Below, one piece after another: positions 5,878 to 58,829 of a stretch of 64,000 nucleotides of DNA. The notes beneath the pieces were generated by a model. It was not told where the DNA came from. It made no database searches and saw nothing but the letters and a program-made list of their open reading frames with translations. The DNA comes from a virus: IMG/VR virus record IMGVR_UViG_3300032323_001428, positions 27,112 to 91,111 of that record; one strand, written 5' to 3'. A program made the position numbers and the translations under genes. The first letter of the stretch is position 1, and the number at the start of each line of letters is the position of its first letter.

Positions 5878-6820
5878 TTAAAATATTAAGTCCAGTCATC
5901 AACATTGCTTTTTGTCTATCTAAATTGTCATAATGTCTTGCACACATTCCAACAAAGATAAGACCTTCAATTAATTTTATCTTATTATAATCAAATTTAT
6001 ACTCATCAGAAATAGATAAAAATTTATTATTAATATCATTTTTTCTTTGCTCATTATGAAAAGAAAGTTTGAATTGATTATCTACATTTGAAACATCAAA
6101 CTCATCATAGATAAAAAATTCATAACCACCATTACATGAATGTGATATTTTTGCAAGATCATAATATGAATCACCGAAGAATTTTGTTTTACCAAAAACT
6201 CCTCTAGGATCAATGAATTTTAAAATCACATCATTGGTAATATCATTTACTCCATAAAGAATATTACTAAAACAAAGATCACCATGAATAAAATGAAATT
6301 TGTCATCACATATTGATGTTTCAATATAAGATTTAATTTTTTCCCAAATAACATCAAAGGATTTTAAAATCTTACCATTAAATACAAATTCTTTTGTATT
6401 TCTAAATTGAGAGAAAAAATCAAACTTATATATCAAATTAATGTATTCTTTCTCTGTCTTATCCACAAACATCAATAAAGAGTCTTCTTTAGATGCAAGG
6501 ACGGAAGTAGATTCTTTATAGTTATTGATGTAAGAAAAAATAAAGTCAAAAACTTTAGTCCAAAAATCAGGATTATAATCCTGATTTATCATAACATTTC
6601 CCAAATTTCCATAAGCATAATATTCAAGTTCCATCTGATAAATTTTTTCATCAGTTGAATAATTCAACATTCTTGGAAAATAAACTTGAATATCCTTAGG
6701 GAGATTTTGATAGTATTCAATCTCCCCAAGAAGACGATCTTCTTCACTAGATTTAATAATACTTGCTTTTGTTTTTGAATTAAATTCAAAATTATTATAA
6801 GCTCTAGTTATAAAGTCCAT
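5855..6820 (-). CDS. APH/choline-kinase-like small-molecule kinase
   Basis: A protein of about 321 aa with the aminoglycoside phosphotransferase-like fold. The catalytic loop FIHGDLCFSN (the HxDxxxxN Brenner motif) is near residue 190, and the metal-binding IDPRG follows near 215. The N-terminal lobe is diverged and lacks a clear glycine-rich loop. In glycan clusters such kinases often phosphorylate a sugar, polyol or choline-like alcohol before nucleotidyl transfer, and the next gene upstream is indeed a nucleotidyltransferase. The start is the ATG at 6820, sharing TGATG with the stop of that gene; three bases further upstream is only TTG. The substrate is unknown. Confidence 0.75.
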   Translation of the reverse strand: MDFITRAYNNFEFNSKTKASIIKSSEEDRLLGEIEYYQNLPKDIQVYFPRMLNYSTDEKIYQMELEYYAYGNLGNVMINQDYNPDFWTKVFDFIFSYINNYKESTSVLASKEDSLLMFVDKTEKEYINLIYKFDFFSQFRNTKEFVFNGKILKSFDVIWEKIKSYIETSICDDKFHFIHGDLCFSNILYGVNDITNDVILKFIDPRGVFGKTKFFGDSYYDLAKISHSCNGGYEFFIYDEFDVSNVDNQFKLSFHNEQRKNDINNKFLSISDEYKFDYNKIKLIEGLIFVGMCARHYDNLDRQKAMLMTGLNILNDVYENL

Positions 6821-8253
6821 CAAATCTTCATCATATTTTCTAAGGTTTCTTTACTAACAGAAGAAAGAGGAACTCTTCCAGATTCAGACTTGCTATAAAC
6901 TTCATCATGAAGTTCTTCAATTGAAACAAAAGTAAGATTATAGATCTTAGCAAACTGACGGAGAGTATCACCCTTAATCATTTTTCCATATTCATCCATA
7001 ATTTCGATAATAACTCCAACCTCCTTCATACCTGCTAAACGGAGAATTTCAACACATCCCTCAGTGTGACCTCTACGTTCAGACAGAAGACCAGGACGGG
7101 CACGGAGAGGAAATAAGTGACCAGGTTGTGCAAGAGAACTTGGTTTAGATTCATCAGAGCAGAAGGTATTGATAGTAGCAAGACGATCACCAACGGACAT
7201 ACCAGTAGTAGCACCTTCTACTGCATCAATACTAGTTGCAAAAGGAGTTCCATACTTATCCATTGAATTGCAATTCATCATAGGAATTTCAAGTTGATCC
7301 AGTTTTTCCTGATTGCAAGGAAGGCACATCAATCCTCTTGCGTGTCTCATAGCAAAAAGAAGATTTTCTTCGGTTGCTTTTTCTGCTGCAAATACAATGT
7401 CTCCTTCAAATTCACGATCATAATCATCAACCATAACAATTGGTTTACCATTGCGAATATCTTCAACAGCTTGTTTTACATTCGATTGCTTAAGATTCAA
7501 AATAATTTCTCCAGGACTTCCAAGGGACACAAAATCATCACATTCCATATGATAGTTTTTAATTTTATAACCATCATTAATCAAATAATTATAAGTCAAA
7601 GCAACATATTTTTCTTTAACACAAGAAACTTTACCAGATGACCATCCTGCATCCGAATCATCAGTCATAAGGTTCTTTGCACTTTCAACAAAAAGGTTTG
7701 CATTCTTCCAGTAGAAAATTCCATTCAAAGACCAAGGAGAAATTGCAACTTTTTCAGCAAGTCTAGTTGCATAACCATTTTCATCGAGTTCAATATGACT
7801 ATATCTACTTTCTTCACCAACAACAACATCCGAATGATCGTATGTGGAAACTACTCCGTCACAGTCTGTTTCTTTAATAAATTTAATGAACTTATTGGGA
7901 TTCCAAGGAGTATACTGATCACAATTTGTAATAACCAGTGGTTCAGAAAGATCAATTTTTCCAGTTTCTAATGCAAGAAGACAAGTTTCTGCTTGTCCTC
8001 TAGTAGAATGTCCAATATCAATAATTTCCATATCCAAATAATATTTGTTCTTAATATCAGTAAGAACTTGAATATATTTTGCTGGAAGACCATTAACAAT
8101 AATGTAATATTTTCCAGGAAGATTAAGTGAGGAAATTGCCCATTCAATTAGTGGTTTTCCTTTTACATCTACAAATGGTTTTGGTTCATTGTAACCATTT
8201 GATTTAAAACGAGTTCCAAGACCCGCAATTGGAAATAAAATGTTCATAGTCAT
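6820..8253 (-). CDS. Fused sugar nucleotidyltransferase - 3,4-dihydroxy-2-butanone 4-phosphate synthase (RibB-like)
   Basis: A 477-aa two-domain protein. Residues 3-255 are a nucleotidyltransferase: PIAGLGTRF signature loop, EPKPFVDVKGKPLIEW, and metal-site ITNCDQY. Residues 260-465 match RibB, which converts ribulose 5-phosphate to 3,4-dihydroxy-2-butanone 4-phosphate and formate. Its active-site segments look intact: DREFEGDIVFAAE, GATTGMSVGDR, QPGHLFPLRA, RRGHTEGCVEI and IIEIMDEYG. No GTP cyclohydrolase II domain follows, so a complete riboflavin function is unlikely. The protein lies in a coupled cassette with a kinase, phosphatase and transaldolase-like enzyme. The start is the ATG at 8253 (or 8247); a TTGACA-N17-TAAAAT promoter is at 8273-8301. 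Its role in making a nucleotide-activated sugar is inference. Confidence 0.85.
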   Translation of the reverse strand: MTMNILFPIAGLGTRFKSNGYNEPKPFVDVKGKPLIEWAISSLNLPGKYYIIVNGLPAKYIQVLTDIKNKYYLDMEIIDIGHSTRGQAETCLLALETGKIDLSEPLVITNCDQYTPWNPNKFIKFIKETDCDGVVSTYDHSDVVVGEESRYSHIELDENGYATRLAEKVAISPWSLNGIFYWKNANLFVESAKNLMTDDSDAGWSSGKVSCVKEKYVALTYNYLINDGYKIKNYHMECDDFVSLGSPGEIILNLKQSNVKQAVEDIRNGKPIVMVDDYDREFEGDIVFAAEKATEENLLFAMRHARGLMCLPCNQEKLDQLEIPMMNCNSMDKYGTPFATSIDAVEGATTGMSVGDRLATINTFCSDESKPSSLAQPGHLFPLRARPGLLSERRGHTEGCVEILRLAGMKEVGVIIEIMDEYGKMIKGDTLRQFAKIYNLTFVSIEELHDEVYSKSESGRVPLSSVSKETLENMMKI

Positions 8254-8272
8254 ATACAAGGGTTATAAAAAA

Positions 8273-21060: not shown

Positions 21061-22542
21061 TCAGAAAGTAAACTTGGTCTGGACTACACCACCCCAAGCA
21101 GATTCTCCTTGATATCGAGCATTATTACTCACATAGAAGAGAGCAGGAGTGATGCTGATGTTGTCTGAAACTTGATACTTATAGAAGAATTCAAGCATTA
21201 TGGCATCCTCAGAAATGTTTTCTGAGTTTCCAGGTTGACCAACAGCAACACCAGCAGTATTACCTTGAGCAAACACATCAGACCACTGAAGTCCAACGAA
21301 CCAGGAATCGGAGTCAGTAGCACCAGTAGCAGAACCATCACCACTTACACCATTATAACCATAACCAACTGAGATAGAAGGAACGAATCCACTCTGAGAA
21401 GGTTGCCAGTAAGCATTCAGAGCAATGCTGTTGCTTTCCTGACCACTGGTAAGGGCACCAGAACCACCACCAAGAGCGTTGAAGGTGCGAACACGACTTC
21501 CTTTAGTACCATAACGGTAAGCAACCGCAGCACCCCACTGAGGAGCACGGTAACCAACTTGGGTCAGGAAGTTCAATCCACTATCAGAATTGAAGACACC
21601 AGTTTCAGTATTGTCCCCATCCTGAGAGACATAGTTCAGACCAGCAAGGAAACCTCCCTGACCTTTTGGAACTTGTTGCTTCCATTGAGCACCAAAACCA
21701 GCACCAGTTGCCTTGTTATAGACACCAGAGGCACCACCAAGTTGGAAGAAGTCAAGGATTTCGGACTTATAAGCAGAAGGAACCCATGCCATCTCCGTGT
21801 TACGAACCAGAGGACCAGCAGTTAGAATTACACTCTTACCAACTGGGAACTGATAGTACAGACGGTCAATCACAACTTGATCGGCATAAGATTCTGCCTT
21901 ATCAAGTTTGAAGAGTGAAGAACTGGAACCAAAAGGATCACTATTAAAGTTACCAGAACGAAGACGAGTGCGAAGCAAGTCCTTACCAGTAAATGAGGTA
22001 TCAAAGTTCAGACGAACATCATAGTTAAATGCGGTATTACCTACATCAACACCTTTATTGGTTTCAAGACCGGGAACGCCACCAAGAATAAAGTTTACTT
22101 CACCTTTGAGTTTGGTAGTGGTAGAGAATTGTGTTGCTTGAAGTTTACCAACTTTGCTTTCAAGACCATCTACACGAGAAGTGATGATAGAAAGTTCCGA
22201 ATCAAACTCAGCAAGAAGTTTTTTGAGTTCATCTGTAGTTTCAGTTACACGATCCAGGCAGGCATTCAGCAGTGCTGCTGCCTCAAAACGAGTCATTGCC
22301 TGACCACCTTTGTATGTACCGTTAGGATAACCAGCAACACAACCATAACGCTCTACAAGGTTGCCAAGTGCTTGATATGCCCAATCAGTAGGTTGGACAT
22401 CAGAGAATTGAGTAATACTTGTGACCTGTGCTGCCGAAGCATACTTGTTGACATCCTCAGTATTGAGTTCTACAGCATTCACCGCAGGAGCAACAAGACC
22501 CAGAGCAACCGGGACAAGCATTAATTGTTTTAGAAAATTCAT
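21061..22542 (-). CDS. Cyanobacterial-type SLH-domain outer-membrane porin (OprB-like)
   Basis: A 493-aa protein with a signal peptide (about residues 1-23, ending PAVNA), an SLH domain (FSDVQPTDWAYQALGNLVERYGCVAGYPNGTYKGGQAMTRFEAA region, residues 46-92), a short coiled coil (residues 100-135) and a C-terminal beta-barrel of about 350 residues ending in aromatic TKFTF. This is the architecture of the major cyanobacterial porins, so it is probably host-derived. Expressed during infection it could change outer-membrane permeability or receptor display. A sigma70-like promoter with a leader of about 150 nt and a terminator frame it as a single-gene unit. GC content seems higher than in the neighbouring glycan genes. 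Confidence 0.9.
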   Translation of the reverse strand: MNFLKQLMLVPVALGLVAPAVNAVELNTEDVNKYASAAQVTSITQFSDVQPTDWAYQALGNLVERYGCVAGYPNGTYKGGQAMTRFEAAALLNACLDRVTETTDELKKLLAEFDSELSIITSRVDGLESKVGKLQATQFSTTTKLKGEVNFILGGVPGLETNKGVDVGNTAFNYDVRLNFDTSFTGKDLLRTRLRSGNFNSDPFGSSSSLFKLDKAESYADQVVIDRLYYQFPVGKSVILTAGPLVRNTEMAWVPSAYKSEILDFFQLGGASGVYNKATGAGFGAQWKQQVPKGQGGFLAGLNYVSQDGDNTETGVFNSDSGLNFLTQVGYRAPQWGAAVAYRYGTKGSRVRTFNALGGGSGALTSGQESNSIALNAYWQPSQSGFVPSISVGYGYNGVSGDGSATGATDSDSWFVGLQWSDVFAQGNTAGVAVGQPGNSENISEDAIMLEFFYKYQVSDNISITPALFYVSNNARYQGESAWGGVVQTKFTF

Positions 22543-24210: not shown

Positions 24211-24405
24211 TCAAAAATCCATAAAATAACCATTAATATAATCAAGTGATAATACTTCAAGATTTTCTTTTTGAATTACCCAATCACGGATTTCACTATA
24301 GATACATTCCGCATCTCTTACTCTACCCTCTTCACACAAATCGCACATACGATTAATATGTTGTTGTATCGTATTATTGCAGATTTTTTTGAGGTGAAGT
24401 CCCAT
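24211..24405 (-). CDS. Small hypothetical protein (64 aa)
   Basis: A 64-aa protein (MGLHLKKICNN start, NGYFMDF end) with three cysteines in its first 25 residues (including MCDLC) and an amphipathic helical character. No family is recognised. It overlaps the end of the GIY-YIG-like gene by 32 bp in another frame. A TTGACA-N17-TACAAT promoter inside that gene (24446-24474) may drive it separately. Confidence 0.6.
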   Translation of the reverse strand: MGLHLKKICNNTIQQHINRMCDLCEEGRVRDAECIYSEIRDWVIQKENLEVLSLDYINGYFMDF

Positions 24406-24823
24406 TAAAGTAATCCTTCCTGAAATATCGGTTCATGACATTTGAATTGTAATACGCAGGAGTCCCACTGTCAAGTGCTTCGGTCAGGACGTTGTTTAAA
24501 AATAATTGCCTTGTCTCTTCATAGTTTGTTTTACCTAATGTCTTATGAAGAGACACTATAGTTCTTTGGAATTTATCCTTTCCGTGTTTCTTTATATCTT
24601 CTTTTAATTCAGGACAAGAACCATAATAATTTTTCCAATCACTTTCTTGTTTTACTTTTCTCTTCTTTCCTTTCGGTGTTCTAAAAGACCAAAAGTATTT
24701 TCTTCCCAAATATTTCCTTTGAGTTTCTTCGCAACTTATCAAATAAACAAATCCAAAATTCTCTTGAATATCTTCTGTCTCAAAAACTTTTCCTTGATAT
24801 AACCAAGGATTATCATAACTCAT
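24374..24823 (-). CDS. GIY-YIG-type endonuclease-like phage protein
   Basis: A 149-aa protein opening PWLYQGKVFETEDI, followed by GFVYLISCEETQRKYLGRKYFW, which fits the VYL...KYLG core of GIY-YIG nucleases. A basic segment (TPKGKKRKVKQ) and LKEDIKKHGKDKFQR, with a possible metal-site Glu in NYEETRQLF, follow. Similar proteins are found in T4-like phages as Seg-like nucleases, often fixed in place. It is preceded by tandem early (24887-24915) and late (24848-24855) promoters. Activity is inferred from the motif; a domesticated role is possible. Confidence 0.7.
   Translation of the reverse strand: MSYDNPWLYQGKVFETEDIQENFGFVYLISCEETQRKYLGRKYFWSFRTPKGKKRKVKQESDWKNYYGSCPELKEDIKKHGKDKFQRTIVSLHKTLGKTNYEETRQLFLNNVLTEALDSGTPAYYNSNVMNRYFRKDYFNGTSPQKNLQ
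24446..24474 (-). promoter_or_regulatory. Intragenic sigma70-like promoter for the 64-aa gene
   Basis: TTGACA (24474-24469, minus strand), 17 nt, TACAAT (24451-24446). It lies inside the GIY-YIG-like gene with a start site near 24439, 34 nt before the 24405 ATG. Confidence 0.55.
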
Positions 24824-24941: not shown

Positions 24942-26789
24942 TTAACCTTCCATAATTTGATCGAACCAACCCTCACTCATATTGTTGATAATCACATTTG
25001 CGTCATCAACTGTTGATGCAAAGTTGTTTTCGAGAAGATATGATGCTACAAACTCGTATGCGGCATATGCCTCTTTAATCTCTCTTGGGGTCATAGCAGC
25101 AGCTCTCTTACGTGCCTTATTTCCTCTACCTGTGGGTGGGAGATCAGCACCATACTTGCTGTATCCTGCCTTTAAATAACTATTGTGTGCTTCTTTTGCC
25201 TTATCTGCATAAGATTGCGAAGCATTGCCCATATCAACTTGTGTCTGTGCTCTTTCGGCATTACCTTTAGCACGATTTAGAATTTTTCTTTTGGCAGAAG
25301 TATCAGACTTTTCAGGACCAACATTATACCTTGCGCGAAGTTGATCACCTCTACTTTGTGGTTTAGGTGTTTCGTCTTCTTTCTTTTTAGAGAATAAACC
25401 TCTGATTGCACTACCAATACCTTCATCAAGATAAATCTCAGCCATTTCGTCCCAAGTATAATCACTGAGGTCATAACCTTCTTCTACAAGTTCATTTACC
25501 CAGAGTTCAACTTCTTCGTTGTAAGACTTATCCTTCACCATAGCAATTGCTTGTGCTTTCGTCATCCCAGAAGCAATCATTCTCGCAACTCTTACATCCG
25601 CAAAGTCATTATCACCATCTTGGTCTTGGTCTACTTTTTTCTTTGCTTCGTAAATTGAAGCATAAGCACCTGCAATATCTCTAATTGTTTTTGCAGAAGG
25701 CCACTCGTAAGAACTTTTCACCATCTCTTTCTTTTGGGAATTTGTATTATTTATACTATTTGTTCCTGGTGTTGCTGGTTTAATTCCTTGAGAAGCACCT
25801 GCAATTTGAGAAGGTGTAGGTGTAGAAGTTGCTGGTTTTGCTGCTAATGCTTTAGCAGCCGCAGAACCTGCTGGTGCTCTATTTAAATTTGCTGGTGTAT
25901 TTGCTCTTGCTAAATCCGCACTTACACTCTTCAAATCAGGAATTGCAGGAGTTGGTCCAGTTGTAGGAAGATTGGTCTTCTGTGCTGCTTGAAGTGCCTT
26001 TTCTGGTGATGCTCCACCTGCTCTTTCTTTTTGAGCTGCTCTCAATTCAGCAGATGTTGGAGTTCTTCTCTCAAATGAAGTGTTTCCTAATTTACCAACT
26101 GCTGGTGTTGCAGGTTTTGGTTGTGCCGCAGCAGGAGTTGCTGCTCCTGATGATGCAGAAGTTCTTGCAGCATTTTGTGCGGCAACACTTGAATAACGGG
26201 ACTTCTCCGCAGCACTAAATGCTCTTGCCTTAAAATTAGCACCAACTCCTGTGCCTTCTACTCCATCTTTCTTTGAAAGAACTGGACCTTTTGGTGGTGC
26301 TGGTTTTGGTGGTGTTCCTGGCACTGGTGTTCTTGTTGGTGGTGTTCCTGGTACTGGTTGTTCTAATGGTTTTTCTGGTGGTAGTTTTTTTTCTGGTGGT
26401 AGTTTTTTTTCTGGTGGTTTTTGTTCATCTCTCCCCAAGCCAGTTTCTTTGTTTAATCTAGTAGCAAGTCTTATCGCTTCGGCGCCTTTATCTGGGTCAT
26501 AAGAAGTTGCCCCAGGTTTTGCGATATATCCTTTATTTGTCTTCACCACTCCCAGTTGTGCTCTTTGGTTCGTTGCTCTAGTTGCTACCTCCCGATTAAA
26601 TGCATCAAGTGCTTTTTGTCCACCAATACCACCAATTTCAGTTAAATACTCTTCATACAACTCTTCCCAGGTATACTCACTCAGGTCATAACCTTCTTCT
26701 AGGAGTGAACTAACCCAACTTTCAACTTCTTCCCAAACATAAACACTCAAATACAACTCGTTCAAGGCGTCCAAATCTTTTCTATTCAT
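24942..26789 (-). CDS. Large low-complexity, probably virion-associated protein (615 aa)
   Basis: This is a modular protein. Residues 18-50 and a mid-protein segment carry a repeated helical module (LLEEGYDLSEYTWEELYEEYL and LVEEGYDLSDYTWDEMAEIYL). Between them lies a long Pro/Ala/Thr/Lys-rich disordered region with PPEKKL and PGTPP repeats. A segment KVDQDQDGDNDFADVRVARMI resembles a calcium-binding-like acidic stretch. The C-terminus is helical (EAYAAYEFVASYLLENN). Such proteins are common in the structural gene sets of T4-like cyanophages; a head-internal role is inference. It has a late-like AATAAATA at 26825-26832 and a terminator at 24896-24922. Confidence 0.65.
   Translation of the reverse strand: MNRKDLDALNELYLSVYVWEEVESWVSSLLEEGYDLSEYTWEELYEEYLTEIGGIGGQKALDAFNREVATRATNQRAQLGVVKTNKGYIAKPGATSYDPDKGAEAIRLATRLNKETGLGRDEQKPPEKKLPPEKKLPPEKPLEQPVPGTPPTRTPVPGTPPKPAPPKGPVLSKKDGVEGTGVGANFKARAFSAAEKSRYSSVAAQNAARTSASSGAATPAAAQPKPATPAVGKLGNTSFERRTPTSAELRAAQKERAGGASPEKALQAAQKTNLPTTGPTPAIPDLKSVSADLARANTPANLNRAPAGSAAAKALAAKPATSTPTPSQIAGASQGIKPATPGTNSINNTNSQKKEMVKSSYEWPSAKTIRDIAGAYASIYEAKKKVDQDQDGDNDFADVRVARMIASGMTKAQAIAMVKDKSYNEEVELWVNELVEEGYDLSDYTWDEMAEIYLDEGIGSAIRGLFSKKKEDETPKPQSRGDQLRARYNVGPEKSDTSAKRKILNRAKGNAERAQTQVDMGNASQSYADKAKEAHNSYLKAGYSKYGADLPPTGRGNKARKRAAAMTPREIKEAYAAYEFVASYLLENNFASTVDDANVIINNMSEGWFDQIMEG
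26371..26418. repeat. 18-bp tandem repeat inside the 615-aa gene
   Basis: An 18-bp unit repeats about 2.6 times, encoding PPEKKL-PPEKKL-PPEKPL. It lies in the disordered Pro-rich region and is prone to length change. Confidence 0.8.
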
Positions 26790-28426: not shown

Positions 28427-28841
28427 ACATCACATTTAATCCTGGTTTTAATACTTCATATTCTCCATTGTTAAAAATAACACCAGAATAATAGTTTTTA
28501 CCATTAAACTCACAGAACATATTATATTCTCTACTATCTTCAAATGGAGTTATATCTATTAAGTTTCCATAGGTATTTTTCCAGATACTATGGTATATCG
28601 CACACCCATAACTTTCATCATCAATATCTGTGATTAAATAATAACCACTTATCTTTTTCCCCCCATAAGTATTTGTATAATGATTTACATTATTGTGGCA
28701 GTTTGCATCAGCACATAAAGGTTTAACTACCACAGGAACTTTCAATAGAATATGAGAAAAACTACAATACTCCTGAAGTTTTATAACACACTCATCTTCT
28801 GGTAGTGATATTCTAAATTTTCTTTTCAATACTCCATCCAT
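28425..28841 (-). CDS. Hypothetical protein with possible Cys-His-Asp triad
   Basis: A 138-aa protein. It has ADANCHNNVNHYTNTYGG near residue 50, GCAIYHSIWKNTYGNLIDITPF near residue 90 and a beta-rich end. The order Cys...His...Asp with a G-x-H-x-W-x-N-x...D pattern recalls papain-like or NlpC/P60-type enzymes, but no family is recognised. It overlaps the GIY-YIG gene (28813-28841) and ends at a strong terminator. The function is unknown. Confidence 0.6.
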   Translation of the reverse strand: MDGVLKRKFRISLPEDECVIKLQEYCSFSHILLKVPVVVKPLCADANCHNNVNHYTNTYGGKKISGYYLITDIDDESYGCAIYHSIWKNTYGNLIDITPFEDSREYNMFCEFNGKNYYSGVIFNNGEYEVLKPGLNVM

Positions 28842-29547
28842 TTGTTCTAGGTCCTTTTCTATTATACTTTATTGCGGCAATCATAGTAGCATATGAGATA
28901 TTTTGAGATTTACAAAACTCTTTTAATCCACCAACAATAACATATTCTTTATTTTCTGGAGATGTGAGTTTCCAAATTTTTGCAGATGGTGGTTTAAAAC
29001 CTGCAGCATATCTTTCCTTTGCCTTTTCACTTATTTTTCTTTTTCTTTCTTCACTACAAGGAATACCATAACTTGGATTATTCTCTCCCGCAACCTTTTG
29101 ACTTATTTTCCTTTTTGTTTCTTCACTATGTTTTTTAGGTCCATATCCACCAACAGAAAGTTGCAAATTTCTTCTTTTTTCTATTTGGTCTTCCCACTTA
29201 TCACCATATATTTCTTGGTATGTTTTTCCTCTATGATTTGGTGGTCTTGAGCTTTCACAAATATTTGTTAATATTCCACCCTCATCATATCGTATTCTTC
29301 CATATTTTTGTATTAATGATTCTTCATAAAAATAAGCATCATTTTCATTTTCAAAATATTCAACTATTTTGACTTCTGGTTCATACCCCTCCTTTCTTAT
29401 TTTTTGTATTTTATTAAATTTTCTTTCATTATCACTTTTTGCTCTTGTTTTTTCGGACAAATGAAAATAAACCCGATCATCTTTTCCCTTTCCAACATAA
29501 AAAGGCAGATTGACTCTTGGGTCTATTAATTCATAAACATAATACAT
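28813..29547 (-). CDS. Free-standing GIY-YIG homing endonuclease
   Basis: A protein of about 244 aa. The GIY-YIG-type core is YYVYELID...PFYVGKGK at the N-terminus, with a catalytic Arg region (VYFHLSEK) and a Glu in YFYEESLIQKYG. Then come NUMOD3-like DNA-binding motifs (KKHSEETKRKIS and PCSEERKRKISEK) and a C-terminal helix-turn-helix region (GLKEFCKSQNISYATM). It lies just downstream of nrdB, a common target neighbourhood in T-even phages. It has tandem early (29584-29612) and late (29572-29579) promoters. The start is the ATG 29547; six bases upstream is TTG. Confidence 0.9.
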   Translation of the reverse strand: MYYVYELIDPRVNLPFYVGKGKDDRVYFHLSEKTRAKSDNERKFNKIQKIRKEGYEPEVKIVEYFENENDAYFYEESLIQKYGRIRYDEGGILTNICESSRPPNHRGKTYQEIYGDKWEDQIEKRRNLQLSVGGYGPKKHSEETKRKISQKVAGENNPSYGIPCSEERKRKISEKAKERYAAGFKPPSAKIWKLTSPENKEYVIVGGLKEFCKSQNISYATMIAAIKYNRKGPRTNGWSIEKKI

Positions 29548-29571
29548 AAACAAGAAACTGAACTCTAATAC

Positions 29572-40887: not shown

Positions 40888-42057
40888 TTAAAATTTAAAT
40901 CCTGAAAATTTGTTTGTGTTTTTACTCTCTTCATAAGTATACTCTTCCTCTTGTCCAGAGTCAAGTATATCTTTTTGTGCTGATTGTTCCACATCATAAA
41001 GACGCATCTTTGCCCTATCAATCCCAATCACAAATCTTTTATTCATTGTTGGGTCATTGTATCTATTCTTCAATTGTTTTACCATAATCTGTCCCAACCC
41101 CTCCAACTCTTCTGTGCTAATAAGGGCAAACATAAGGTCAGCAGTAGCAGGAAGACCAAAGGATTCACTAGTATCAGTAAGGTCAGGGTCAGAGCTAGAA
41201 AAACCACTACGAGTAGTCTGGGTGGCCGAAACAATTGGAACATTTGATTCAACTGCAAGACCACGAAGTTCTTCTGCAATTGCTTTAACATAAGAGTAAG
41301 AATTAACTGAAAAATTACTCTTATACCTTGAGGACCCACAAATATTAAGGTAGTCAATGAAAATAATATCAGGCTTAAATGATTTCTTAAGAGAGAGTTC
41401 ATTAAGAAGTGCTCTAAAATGCCCTGCGTGTGCTGAAGCAGTTGGATATTCTTTAATAATCAAAGTTCCTTGTGTCTTCTTCGCAATATTATTTACTTTT
41501 GTGTCAAACATCATTTTTGGTAATGTTTCAATATCTTTGATATTTACATTCAAAAGGTTTGCGTCAATTCGTTCAGCAATTTTCTCCTCTGCCATTTCAA
41601 GCGTAATATACAATACGTTCCGTCCTTGAAGAAGAACTGATGCCGCTACGTGACACATAAAGAGACTTTTTCCAACTCCAGTATTGTGAGAGGAAACTCC
41701 ATTAGTGTAATATCTATGATTTGGATGATTTACATTAATATCTACAATAGGTATTTGTTTATTGTTTTTATAAACCCGACCAATTTTAATACCCTCGTTA
41801 GTAATCAATTTGTATATTAAGTTAGATTGTTCCATTTCTTTAGCAGAAATCCATCCATCAGTAGTTTCAAATAAATGACTTTCATTACATTTTACTTTAG
41901 TATTATCTAACAAATATAATTTGTATTCTTCATACATTCCTTTGTTAATAAAAAAATTAACTGGAACATATCCATCGGGAGAATCAACTTCTACCTCATA
42001 TCCATTATCAAGTAATGTTTTGATTTCATCAATTGATGTTTCTTTTTCAATCCACAT
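40888..42057 (-). CDS. 41: Split gp41 helicase: intein C-fragment plus C-terminal helicase part
   Basis: A 389-aa protein from the ATG at 42057 (MWIEKETSIDE). Residues 1-125 are the intein C-fragment and residues 126-389 the C-extein. The first extein residues TGVGKSLFMCH complete the P-loop of the hexameric DnaB/gp41 helicase; Walker B is DIIFIDYLNI and RAKMRL lies near the end. Joined to the N-half (42746-43375) it would read ALAG-TGVGKS. The extein alone lacks the N-terminal domain and part of the P-loop, so trans-splicing seems required for activity. A TTG start at 42102 would extend the frame by 15 residues but would overlap the endonuclease gene. Confidence 0.93.
   Translation of the reverse strand: MWIEKETSIDEIKTLLDNGYEVEVDSPDGYVPVNFFINKGMYEEYKLYLLDNTKVKCNESHLFETTDGWISAKEMEQSNLIYKLITNEGIKIGRVYKNNKQIPIVDINVNHPNHRYYTNGVSSHNTGVGKSLFMCHVAASVLLQGRNVLYITLEMAEEKIAERIDANLLNVNIKDIETLPKMMFDTKVNNIAKKTQGTLIIKEYPTASAHAGHFRALLNELSLKKSFKPDIIFIDYLNICGSSRYKSNFSVNSYSYVKAIAEELRGLAVESNVPIVSATQTTRSGFSSSDPDLTDTSESFGLPATADLMFALISTEELEGLGQIMVKQLKNRYNDPTMNKRFVIGIDRAKMRLYDVEQSAQKDILDSGQEEEYTYEESKNTNKFSGFKF
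41683..42057 (-). other. Split-intein C-fragment (IntC, about 125 residues)
   Basis: It contains nearly the whole Hint domain: a block-B-like KCNESHLFETTDGW, a block-F region IPIVDINVNHPNHRYYTNG and block G VSSHN ending in His-Asn before Thr. Terminal Asn and +1 Thr are the residues needed for cleavage and ligation. No LAGLIDADG endonuclease domain is inserted. Confidence 0.9.
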
Positions 42058-42061
42058 TTTG

Positions 42062-42069
42062 TATAAATA
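42062..42069 (+). promoter_or_regulatory. T4-type late promoter of the intein-gap endonuclease
   Basis: A perfect TATAAATA on the plus strand, in the 33-bp gap between the divergent gp41 C-half and the HNH gene. The start site would be near 42077, with AGGGGAA just before the ATG at 42091. Confidence 0.8.
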
Positions 42070-42090
42070 GTAGTAGCAGGGACAGGGGAA

Positions 42091-42759
42091 ATGTTTAGTC
42101 AAATTTATTCTAACTTATGCGAAGGCAACAAGTCAAGAAAAGACAATTATAAAAAGTATTCTGGATTACACGAACATCATATTAGCCCAAAACATATGGG
42201 GGGAGATAATAGTGAAGAAAATCTTACTTATTTGAGTGTAAGAGAACATATCATAGCACATTATTTACTTTGGAAAATTTATAAAAATCCAAATGACTTA
42301 AGGTCTATGAAAATGTTGGGGGCAAATATAACACCCCAACATAGAAAAATAATAGGAGAATTTTGTAGAGATAATCAAATTGGGTTCTTCTCAATCCCAG
42401 TAGAAGAAAGAAAAGATTGGAGACTAAAAGGAATAGAAATACAAAAACGAGAATATCTAATCAATAATACTAAAAATTTCTATTATTGGAGCACAGAAGA
42501 AGGCAGAAAGGAAAGAGCATCCATTGGAGGAAAACAAAGAGCATCCACAGAATTCAATTATTGGGCATCTAATGAAGGAAGAAAAACACGAGCATCATTA
42601 GGGGGAAAGGCACATAAAGGCAAAAAGGTAATGCATTTACCAGGAACAAAAGGATGGAAAAGAATATCACCAGAAGAAGTTGATATAAAACTAAATGAAG
42701 GTTGGAAGTTTGGAACTGGAGAACCAGCACCAAACTCCAAAATCAAGAAATCTTCCTAA
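42091..42759 (+). CDS. HNH-type homing endonuclease between the two helicase halves
   Basis: A 222-aa protein and the only sizeable plus-strand gene in the window. The HNH-like core is LHEHHISPKHMGGDNSEENL, then SVREHIIAHYLLW. The C-terminal half holds repeated DNA-binding-type motifs (YYWSTEEGRKERASIGG and NYWASNEGRKTRASLGG) and a GTKGWKRISPEEV end. The gene fills the gap between intein fragments: 33 bp from the C-half ATG and a 17-bp tail-to-tail overlap with the N-half stop. Its own TATAAATA and AGGGGAA give late expression opposite to early helicase transcription. It likely spreads the split-intein insertion by cutting intact gp41 alleles (inference). Confidence 0.88.
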   Translation: MFSQIYSNLCEGNKSRKDNYKKYSGLHEHHISPKHMGGDNSEENLTYLSVREHIIAHYLLWKIYKNPNDLRSMKMLGANITPQHRKIIGEFCRDNQIGFFSIPVEERKDWRLKGIEIQKREYLINNTKNFYYWSTEEGRKERASIGGKQRASTEFNYWASNEGRKTRASLGGKAHKGKKVMHLPGTKGWKRISPEEVDIKLNEGWKFGTGEPAPNSKIKKSS

Positions 42760-43375
42760 ATCTAATTTTAACTCTAGTTTCTGGATGAACGCAACCAGCA
42801 AGTGCGATATTGAGGGTCTTATTAGGAATACCCCCTTTGGTAATTTTATTAAAATATTCCAAATCAAATGGGATTTTGTCTTCTTTTCTATGATAAGATT
42901 CATATCGTTCTTCATAATCTTTTAGGTAGTCGTGTCCAATGTGGCTATCAAATCCAATGGCAAGTGCTTCTTGCAAAATTGCTGGAATGGAATCTCTTGA
43001 CTTCTTTTCGTCTTGTCCGTCAGCAATTTTGATACTTTCCATAAGAGCAAGATAGATTGCTCGGTCTTTACACCACTTTTCAGTAGTATCTATCAACCAT
43101 TGTTTATCTGCTGGAGCATCATCAAGTTTAGAAATATAATCACAAATAATTTTGTAGGTATCTTCTGTAATATCAGTTCTTTTTTCTGTTTCAATCAAAA
43201 GAACTTCTTTTGTTGCTAGTTGTTCGTAAGCAACAATAAATTTACAAATCTCCTCAAAAACTACTTTCTCGTGAAGATTCTCAAAGTATTCATTTTTGAT
43301 GAAAGGCAATACCTTCCTACAATAATCATTATTAAATAAAAGACTTCTAAGAATTGTAGTTTCGACTTTTTCCAT
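42743..43375 (-). CDS. 41: Split gp41 helicase: N-terminal part plus intein N-fragment
   Basis: A 210-aa protein. Residues 1-194 match the N-terminal domain and linker of T4-type gp41 replicative helicase (MEKVETTILRSLLFN start; IPFDLEYFNKITKGGIPNKT), ending NIALAG inside the P-loop. The final 16 residues, CVHPETRVKIRFRKIS, are an intein N-fragment starting with the required Cys. The helicase unwinds DNA at the fork with gp61 primase. The stop overlaps the 3' end of the opposite-strand HNH gene by 17 bp. Protein trans-splicing with the 40888-42057 product would restore a helicase of about 458 aa. Confidence 0.93.
   Translation of the reverse strand: MEKVETTILRSLLFNNDYCRKVLPFIKNEYFENLHEKVVFEEICKFIVAYEQLATKEVLLIETEKRTDITEDTYKIICDYISKLDDAPADKQWLIDTTEKWCKDRAIYLALMESIKIADGQDEKKSRDSIPAILQEALAIGFDSHIGHDYLKDYEERYESYHRKEDKIPFDLEYFNKITKGGIPNKTLNIALAGCVHPETRVKIRFRKIS
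42746..42793 (-). other. Ultra-short split-intein N-fragment (IntN, 16 residues)
   Basis: The last 16 codons of the gp41 N-half: catalytic Cys1 in CVHPETRV (block A) and then a basic end before TGA. Canonical split inteins have N-fragments of about 100 residues, so this is an atypical split near the start of the intein. Confidence 0.9.
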
Positions 43376-51841: not shown

Positions 51842-52282
51842 TTAATATTGTAAATAGGTAAGTTTAGTTTGTTCTTCCAATGATAAGGAGCAAAAAAGTT
51901 CCCAAGCAGCGGAAAGTTGAGCATTTGATTTTTTTCTATGGCAATCGTTACATAGTGGTTGTAAATCTGTAATTTCTTTTTTTATACATTCCCAACTCAT
52001 GGAGGATGGTCTTTTATTCCAAATTATATTACCACTAGTATTCCCAGTTCTAAGTTTTGTTTGTTTTTCTTTTTCGGAAGAAGTTCTTGGCATAATATGA
52101 TCAAATTCAATATTTTTGGTTGATCCGCAGGACACACATACTCTCCCAACGTTTTCAAGCAAATATTCCTTTTTTTTGTAGTAGTGATCTCTTTGTAGTT
52201 GCCTTTGCCTTTCTCTATTTTGAGATTTCCATTCTTGTTGATATTCTTTTTTAGTTTTGTCTTTATATTCGTTTTTGGGCAT
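51842..52282 (-). CDS. Free-standing HNH endonuclease
   Basis: A 146-aa protein. The basic N-terminus (KEYQQEWKSQNRERQRQLQ) is followed by a zinc-binding HNH domain: VCVSCGSTKNIEFDHIMPR with catalytic His, then DLQPLCNDCHRKKSN. It lies 3 nt from the gp45 start and is probably a homing endonuclease. Late-like CTAAATA and CATAAATA boxes lie upstream (52300-52322). Confidence 0.88.
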   Translation of the reverse strand: MPKNEYKDKTKKEYQQEWKSQNRERQRQLQRDHYYKKKEYLLENVGRVCVSCGSTKNIEFDHIMPRTSSEKEKQTKLRTGNTSGNIIWNKRPSSMSWECIKKEITDLQPLCNDCHRKKSNAQLSAAWELFCSLSLEEQTKLTYLQY

Positions 52283-58298: not shown

Positions 58299-58829
58299 TT
58301 ACCTTTGGTGACCTTGTTTTCTTCTTTCGGCATAGTATTTTTTTAAAGATTCGCTTTTTTTATTTCGTTCTTCTTCACTTTGTTTTTGTCCCGTTCTGCT
58401 TTTATTTCCTTTACTAATAGTTGATATTTTTTGTTTTGTTTCATCGCTATGAATTTGTACTCCAGTTTTTCCTTTATTCCAAGCATTTCTTCCTTTATGG
58501 GAATTTGACATTTTATTTTTTGATTCTTCTGTATGATTTTTTCCTTTCATAGCAGCATATCCTTTCTCTCCTCCTTCACTAATATTTACTAAAATGCCAC
58601 CATCAATCTTCCTACCATATTTTTTTATTATTTCTTTTTCTTTAATTAACGCATCTTCTTCTGTAAGATTTTCAACAAGATAAACTATTTTTGTTTTATC
58701 TTTTGGGATATTTACAAATTTATGCGTCTTTTTATTTTTTTGGTATGCCCTATTCCCAGTCCCCTTTCCGACATAATAAGGAGACCTATCATCTCTTAAA
58801 TAAGCATAAACATAATAGTTATTTCTCAT
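58299..58829 (-). CDS. Free-standing GIY-YIG homing endonuclease
   Basis: A 176-aa protein: YYVYAYLRDDRSPYYVGKGTG is the GIY-YIG-type core, with Arg in NRAYQKN and Glu in EDALIKEKEIIKKYG. NUMOD3-like motifs (NHTEESKNKMSNSHKG and HSDETKQKISTISKG, QSEEERNKKSESLKK) follow. It lies between uvsY and uvsW with a TATAAATA element upstream (58852-58859). Confidence 0.92.
   Translation of the reverse strand: MRNNYYVYAYLRDDRSPYYVGKGTGNRAYQKNKKTHKFVNIPKDKTKIVYLVENLTEEDALIKEKEIIKKYGRKIDGGILVNISEGGEKGYAAMKGKNHTEESKNKMSNSHKGRNAWNKGKTGVQIHSDETKQKISTISKGNKSRTGQKQSEEERNKKSESLKKYYAERRKQGHQR

Follow-up and report, generated by a model that had tools for sequence, protein, structure and literature searches.

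A split intein in the P-loop of the gp41 helicase of a T4-like cyanophage: an atypically split, probably mobile family with an antisense HNH gene

We analyzed bases 27112 to 91111 of the 91,111-base linear virus record IMGVR_UViG_3300032323_001428 (the window, 64,000 bases; positions are those of the window), which derives from a T4-like cyanophage with its replicative helicase, gp41, encoded in two pieces. The two open reading frames (ORFs) and the features between them are listed in Table 1. A prediction made earlier from the DNA letters alone (the original prediction) had described an N-half that runs through ALAG into a 16-residue intein start, a C-half that opens with about 125 intein residues ending in VSSHN and continues with TGVGKS, and an opposite-strand HNH gene that fills the space between them, leaving a 33-bp gap at its head and a 17-bp overlap at its tail. 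All of these elements were found at exactly the coordinates given, with the N-half reading ...NIALAG/CVHPETRVKIRFRKIS and then a stop codon (a slash marks a junction throughout). The two exteins also rejoin as proposed, giving 458 residues with the junction ALAG/TGVGKS. The comparison with related phages that had been suggested found intact gp41 genes in the Synechococcus phages DSL-LC03 and S-8S55, with which the joined exteins share 75.5% and 74.0% identity, respectively, in alignments free of gaps at the junction. An essential gene thus lies in two ORFs whose joined exteins correspond to the intact gene, and a free-standing homing endonuclease gene (HEG) occupies the break, as in fractured genes. 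The prediction had been made to depend on there being no separate intact gp41, and none was found in the 91-kb record, where a DnaB_C search gave one match above the cut-off and a second, weak match that is UvsX, or in six related records of 99 to 234 kb, which hold the split copy only.

Table 1. Features of the split gp41 locus
Feature	Position	Strand	Content or evidence
gp41-N	42743-43375	-	194 extein residues, 16-residue N-terminal intein fragment (IntN) and stop
gp41 helicase N-extein, 194 aa, ends ...NIALAG	42794-43375	-	phrog_19 DnaB-like replicative helicase, E 1.4e-45; alignment to intact gp41
IntN, 16 aa, CVHPETRVKIRFRKIS, Cys1 nucleophile; stop codon 42743-42745	42746-42793	-	Read from sequence
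HNH homing endonuclease gene, antisense, 222 aa	42091-42759	+	phrog_655 homing endonuclease, E 1e-14
T4-type late promoter TATAAATA of HNH gene	42062-42069	+	Motif scan of window
Shine-Dalgarno-like AGGGACAGGGGA of HNH gene	42078-42089	+	5/6 match to AGGAGG
Head-to-head gap, 33 bp, ATG of C-terminal intein fragment (IntC) to HNH ATG	42058-42090		Sequence
Tail overlap, 17 bp, HNH end (IKKSS, stop) antisense to IntN end (RKIS, stop)	42743-42759		Sequence
gp41-C	40888-42057	-	125-residue IntC and 264 extein residues
IntC, 125 aa, MWIEKE...VSSHN, N-x-x-H motif, terminal His-Asn	41683-42057	-	Alignment of relatives; PDB search, VidaL intein, E 1e-14
gp41 helicase C-extein, 264 aa, begins T+1 GVGKS; stop 40888-40890	40891-41682	-	DnaB_C PF03796, E 6.6e-18; phrog_19, E 1.1e-84

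The start of IntC was placed at the ATG at 42057 rather than at a TTG at 42102, which would give a longer ORF, because many relatives have an in-frame stop 5 to 7 codons upstream of the equivalent ATG. IntC has no Shine-Dalgarno sequence before it, which is not anomalous, as the same holds for many other genes of this phage. A sigma70-like site at 42136-42107 (minus strand), upstream of IntC, was rejected because such sites occur at chance level (7 found versus 6.0 expected).

No intein model in Pfam or NCBIfam detects the gp41 intein, and its identification therefore rests on motifs and on sequence and fold searches of the PDB. The catalytic junction residues Cys1, N-x-x-H, the terminal His-Asn, and Thr+1 are invariant or nearly so in the alignment of relatives, in which the IntC family also retains a DINVxHxNHRYYT block and a terminal SSHN. 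These include the residues that mark class 1 inteins, namely, a nucleophile at position 1, the N3/block B histidine, the C-terminal His-Asn, and a nucleophile at +1. In the PDB sequence search, the VidaL intein was the top match (E value of 1e-14), collinear over residues 5 to 140; the gp41-1 intein (6qaz) matched weakly (E value of 7e-5), and matches to ankyrin and DARPin proteins were discarded as chance similarity to a short IKTLLDNGYEV stretch. An AlphaFold2 model of L066, a natural contiguous relative (L numbers are labels of relative loci or contigs), was built from a 36-row alignment and reached a mean predicted local distance difference test score (pLDDT) of 95.3 and a predicted template modeling score (pTM) of 0.86. 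A Foldseek search with this model returned VidaL (6vgv) first, with template modeling (TM) scores of 0.88/0.86, a root mean square deviation (rmsd) of 1.4, and 30% identity, followed by the Mtu RecA and gp41-1 inteins; the 48 PDB matches at an E value of ≤0.001 are inteins and bacterial-intein-like domains.

Atypical S1 splits are defined by an IntN of about 15 to 25 residues that ends after strand β2 (PMC13014065; PMC11923092). Natural atypical splits are found after strand 2 (S1; VidaL with 16 residues and PolB16 OarG with 15) or after helix 1 (S2; AceL TerL and GOS TerL) (PMC13014065; PMC10189870). In the L066 model, the break after residue 16 maps behind strand 2, to the loop that connects the strands at 7-13 and 19-24, and we therefore assign the intein to the S1-split type; the 16/125 division differs from the S0 split (about 100/40) of gp41-1-type inteins. 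By its residues and its modeled structure, the gp41 intein is a class 1-type, atypically (S1) split intein with a predicted intein fold. The median ratio of nonsynonymous to synonymous divergence (dN/dS) of IntC is about 0.26, which points to purifying selection. The sequence, comparative, and structural evidence thus bears out the original prediction of an atypical split intein in the gp41 P-loop, and the kinship it had suggested with known split inteins of very short IntN holds, with VidaL the closest in both PDB searches.

The layout is not unique to the window. Two rounds of IntC searches recovered the intein from more than 100 environmental IMG/VR contigs, in which it occupies the same gp41 codon, and in the first scan, all 80 of 80 relatives were joined to gp41-C at the identical codon; given this recurrence, the architecture is far beyond chance. 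An independent survey keyed only on the ALAG-CVHP junction found 114 stretches, of which 80 were read: IntN ends after 14 to 21 intein residues in 73 of them, and the other 7 read on, including 2 copies of the contiguous L062-group allele described below. Sequenced phage isolates yielded no close relative, the best matches being about 31% identical and including the UvsX inteins of Pseudomonas phage PA5oct (split) and Salicola phage SCTP-2 (contiguous), and the bacterial and archaeal genome collection yielded no relative. A related intein was also seen in a PhoH-like P-loop ATPase of an uncultured huge phage (LR756500.1, L147), which reads GKAG/CLYPDEKIKIYKMKSKNKINSKNQQE and a stop codon, then an intervening gene, and then ...SSHN/TGKT. 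These sequences suggest that the P-loops of several phage ATPases are intein targets. In L136, another typical-looking split intein (CLAGDTKIKTSNGSKNISDIN... and ...LDNNILAHNS) lies just upstream of the gp41 split, and two intein-fractured genes may stand side by side there.

The product of the HNH gene belongs to the homing endonuclease family phrog_655 (E value of 1e-14), 11 diverged antisense relatives share its H, N, and H residues without exception, and the gene's median dN/dS of about 0.13 likewise indicates purifying selection. Its late promoter is the sole plus-strand copy of TATAAATA in the window, where most of the other ten copies lie just upstream of minus-strand ORFs, and the promoter was found in 53 of 54 antisense-HNH loci, 26 to 40 nucleotides before the ATG. 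When IMG/VR was searched for relatives of the HNH protein, each of the 80 best matches, with identities as low as 43%, lay in this gp41 slot (80/80). The intein search had already turned up most of the contigs concerned, and the 23 further loci, checked singly, all have gp41 and/or IntC flanks. This HNH lineage appears, from its sampled relatives, to be restricted to the gp41 P-loop site. Other endonuclease-like genes occur elsewhere on the minus strand of the window: a NUMOD3/GIY-YIG gene downstream of the ribonucleotide reductase small subunit gene (28813-29553), a SegE-like GIY-YIG gene (24374-24823), and a NUMOD3 gene (58299-58829), each with TATAAATA just upstream, and a further HNH gene (51842-52282).

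The slot has other occupants in the relatives. An antisense HNH gene of a second type is found in L004, L013, L032, and L054, a mosaic endonuclease in L017, sense-strand HNH genes in L074, L119, L121, and L122, and a 296-residue sense-strand gene in L135 and L136, while the split alleles L009, L024, L069, L071, L087 to L090, and L138 have no HNH gene at all. Many relatives carry an extra sense-strand cargo gene between IntN and the HNH gene (L016, 2317-2688; L031, 438-1004; L025, 1957-2730; L056, 2377-2787; L033, 2424-2795). One kind of cargo is metalloprotease-like, with an HEIIH motif (phrog_87, E value of 8e-5), other cargo genes have in common an N-terminal LQEAYMEVV motif as well as a DIYDIILSHLLDEGYAETPEAAEAIMVNMSEEW segment, and another kind belongs to phrog_3708. 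By eye, the cargo proteins resemble capsid-targeted internal proteins, and the gp41 split site seems to collect cargo genes. The phrog_3708 family is also encoded elsewhere in the window, at 24942-26789, by a gene with repeated LSDYTWEELYEEYL-type segments (E value of 2e-14).

Divergence along the locus is uneven. In 790 pairs of loci with the first type of HNH gene, the median synonymous divergence (dS) reaches 1.85 in the N-extein and 1.60 in the C-extein but only 0.56 in the HNH gene and 0.49 in IntC, and in 767 of the 790 pairs the HNH gene is less diverged by this measure than the N-extein; these figures are descriptive and not significance tests, because the pairs share ancestry. Between the window and L010, compared in 100-base steps, identity is 60 to 82% over the final 600 bases of the N-extein, rises to 99% at IntN, stays mostly at 95 to 99% across the HNH gene, is 85 to 98% in IntC, and falls from 87% to 71% just past IntC, such that the edges of the low-divergence tract coincide with the intein insertion site. 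Judged by these values, the module is much younger than its host gene. The pattern fits homing of IntN-HNH-IntC as one unit, with HNH cleavage as the presumed trigger, and indicates transfer of the entire unit between phages, with the ATP-binding loop of the helicase as its landing site.

The anatomy of the module, its kinship, its purifying selection, and its relative youth are established at the sequence level. We consider it very probable that gp41 is fractured in Walker A by an S1-split intein (16 + 125 residues), that the two halves trans-splice, and that the HNH endonuclease homes the module. IntN, which supplies strands 1 and 2 of the fold, would dock onto IntC, and the two precursors would trans-splice into a 458-residue helicase whose P-loop is whole and which would be the phage's sole gp41. 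Either half alone would be unable to bind ATP normally, and we infer that trans-splicing is essential. The HNH endonuclease would be expressed late from its own opposite-strand promoter and would most likely cut the empty P-loop site in co-infecting phages, and repair of such a cut would transfer IntN-HNH-IntC as a block to the gp41 gene of the recipient. Splicing would render the insertion harmless, and its position within an essential codon run would hamper deletion. Three points weigh against this interpretation: the intein model is that of a contiguous relative and not of two separate fragments; the predicted HNH structure is weak (pTM of 0.44), too uncertain for a fold search; and an intact gp41 may exist elsewhere, because the virus records are fragments or of uncertain completeness.

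Three rival explanations were weighed. The HNH gene might be a passenger, with the module spreading by ordinary phage recombination or by vertical descent at a slow synonymous rate. The split alleles without any HNH gene (those listed above other than L071) and the ability of other HEG types to fill the slot (L074, L119, and L135) speak for such a role, which is nevertheless unlikely in view of the confinement of the best 80 HNH relatives to one slot, the purifying selection on the gene together with its conserved late promoter, and the match of the low-divergence tract to the intein borders. The main rival to splicing itself is that the HNH gene split gp41 and that the halves now act as a noncovalent complex carrying decayed, nonsplicing intein remnants. 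Split enzymes that work without splicing are known in T4-like phages, as in phage Aeh1, where the halves of the split NrdA function in this way (PMC2988022). However, the gp41 intein is not decayed, since dozens of diverged relatives retain its junction and motif residues, with the low dN/dS given above, and contiguous versions of the same intein exist. In addition, failure to splice would leave the P-loop strand with 16 foreign residues at its end and the GKS half with 125 of them. A noncovalent complex leaves the conserved intein unexplained, and we regard it as very improbable. An assembly artifact or pseudogene, conceivable for a single metagenomic contig, is refuted by the recurrence of the same architecture, with frames and promoters conserved, in dozens of independent assemblies and has a negligible probability.

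The trans-splicing intein that we favor also exists in contiguous form at this codon. The intein is contiguous in six contigs (L062 and L064 to L068), whose IntC is nested among split, HNH-bearing alleles with support of 99/81, 99/75, and 100/98 at successive forks. Their DNA reads AGGAAGATTTCTTG/GTGGATTG, with the scar TCT-TG/G-TGG, and corresponds to a split allele minus everything from the TG of the IntN stop codon to the G of the IntC start codon, with one extra Trp left behind. Contiguous L378 is nested with split L354 and L202 (support of 99/99 and 99/95), and its scar reads ACTGCCA/TTGTAAAT, where 37 bases of L354, its stop and start codons among them, are missing. In a third contiguous type (L349, L370, and L385), the N-extein resembles that of split L362. 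A single clade of contiguous rows was rejected by the approximately unbiased (AU) test (P value of 0.002, first tree). In L069, a remnant resembling an HNH tail now provides the start codon. Splitting is probably a reversible stage of a homing cycle of HEG-driven split, HEG loss, and re-fusion by deletion. An endonuclease gene lodging at the S1 loop would split and mobilize the intein, its loss would leave a head-to-tail split pair, and a further deletion joining the region of the IntN stop codon to that of the IntC start codon would re-create a contiguous mini-intein. The claim of reversibility is confined to the nested cases, because the root is not resolved and the deep contiguous L359 may be ancestral.

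Both S1-split inteins and fractured genes with an HEG have been described before, and the gp41 intein is therefore an addition to a known kind. VidaL is S1 split, with a 16-residue IntN, and is cysteine dependent and fast (PMC13014065; PDB 6vgv/6vgw); the gp41 intein shares its split site, IntN length, fold, and cysteine nucleophile but is only about 30% identical to it, and VidaL's own nearest sequence match among those compared is to the UvsX P-loop inteins of PA5oct and SCTP-2. These last two share with the gp41 intein the placement of a related intein at the P-loop of a phage ATPase but differ in host gene (UvsX) and, at 31% identity, in sequence, and the intervening gene is a different one on the sense strand. 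In PA5oct (L144/L148, NC_071039, 1323-4329), gp276 ends in a 17-residue IntN (CLPETAKVKIRLSKKQS and a stop codon), followed by an HEG-like gene and by gp274, which starts with IntC; the record annotates UvsX on the C-half only, which was detected by mass spectrometry, and lists the N-half gp276 as hypothetical. PolB16 OarG, for which trans-splicing has been demonstrated, likewise has an S1-type split and a very short IntN of 15 residues (PMC10189870), but it differs in its PolB host, its cysteine-less Ser1/Ser+1 chemistry, its 168-residue IntC, and its Foldseek TM score of only 0.51 to 0.55.

Dassa et al. in 2009, as cited in PMC6892783, described fractured genes that combine split inteins with free-standing HEGs, among them gp41-1 and gp41-8. 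The present locus resembles them in that an essential phage gene is halved, a split intein lies at the break, and an HEG stands between the halves, but the usual break lies near the homing endonuclease site (about 100/40) rather than at S1 (16/125), and the HEG here, unlike theirs, is an antisense HNH gene with its own late promoter. T4-type free-standing HNH (Mob) genes share the HNH nuclease (phrog_655), the use of late promoters, and insertion in critical gene regions; the gene here differs in lying antisense inside a split intein and in belonging to a lineage apparently restricted to one site. The gp41-1 intein is presumably inserted at a later site, TRSG/SSSD, whereas the intein here lies in the P-loop. 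A gp41 P-loop site, a site-tied antisense HNH gene with a late promoter, and a split-to-contiguous reversal were not found in the open literature, key subscription papers lying outside that scope. On sequence evidence, the gp41 P-loop intein is a new, widespread, and apparently mobile family of S1-split inteins.

Natural S1-split inteins with a very short IntN are few and are useful for attaching synthetic peptides to proteins, and the family offers more than 100 natural sequences, with an IntN of 14 to 23 residues, that can be screened. A single codon of one essential gene presents a series of contiguous, split, split with HEG, split with HEG and cargo, HEG-lost, and re-fused alleles, which makes split-intein origin, reversibility, and HEG mobilization directly testable, and the isolated phage PA5oct, with its related split UvsX, provides a laboratory handle.

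Two further genes on the minus strand of the window were noted. The gene at 6820-8259, within a long block of sugar and glycosyltransferase genes, fuses a sugar nucleotidyltransferase domain to a 3,4-dihydroxy-2-butanone 4-phosphate synthase of the riboflavin pathway (PF00926, E value of 2e-65). The ORF at 21061-22542 resembles, by eye only, a cyanobacterial SLH-domain porin (MNFLKQLMLVPVALGLVAPAVNA...), which is unusual for a phage.
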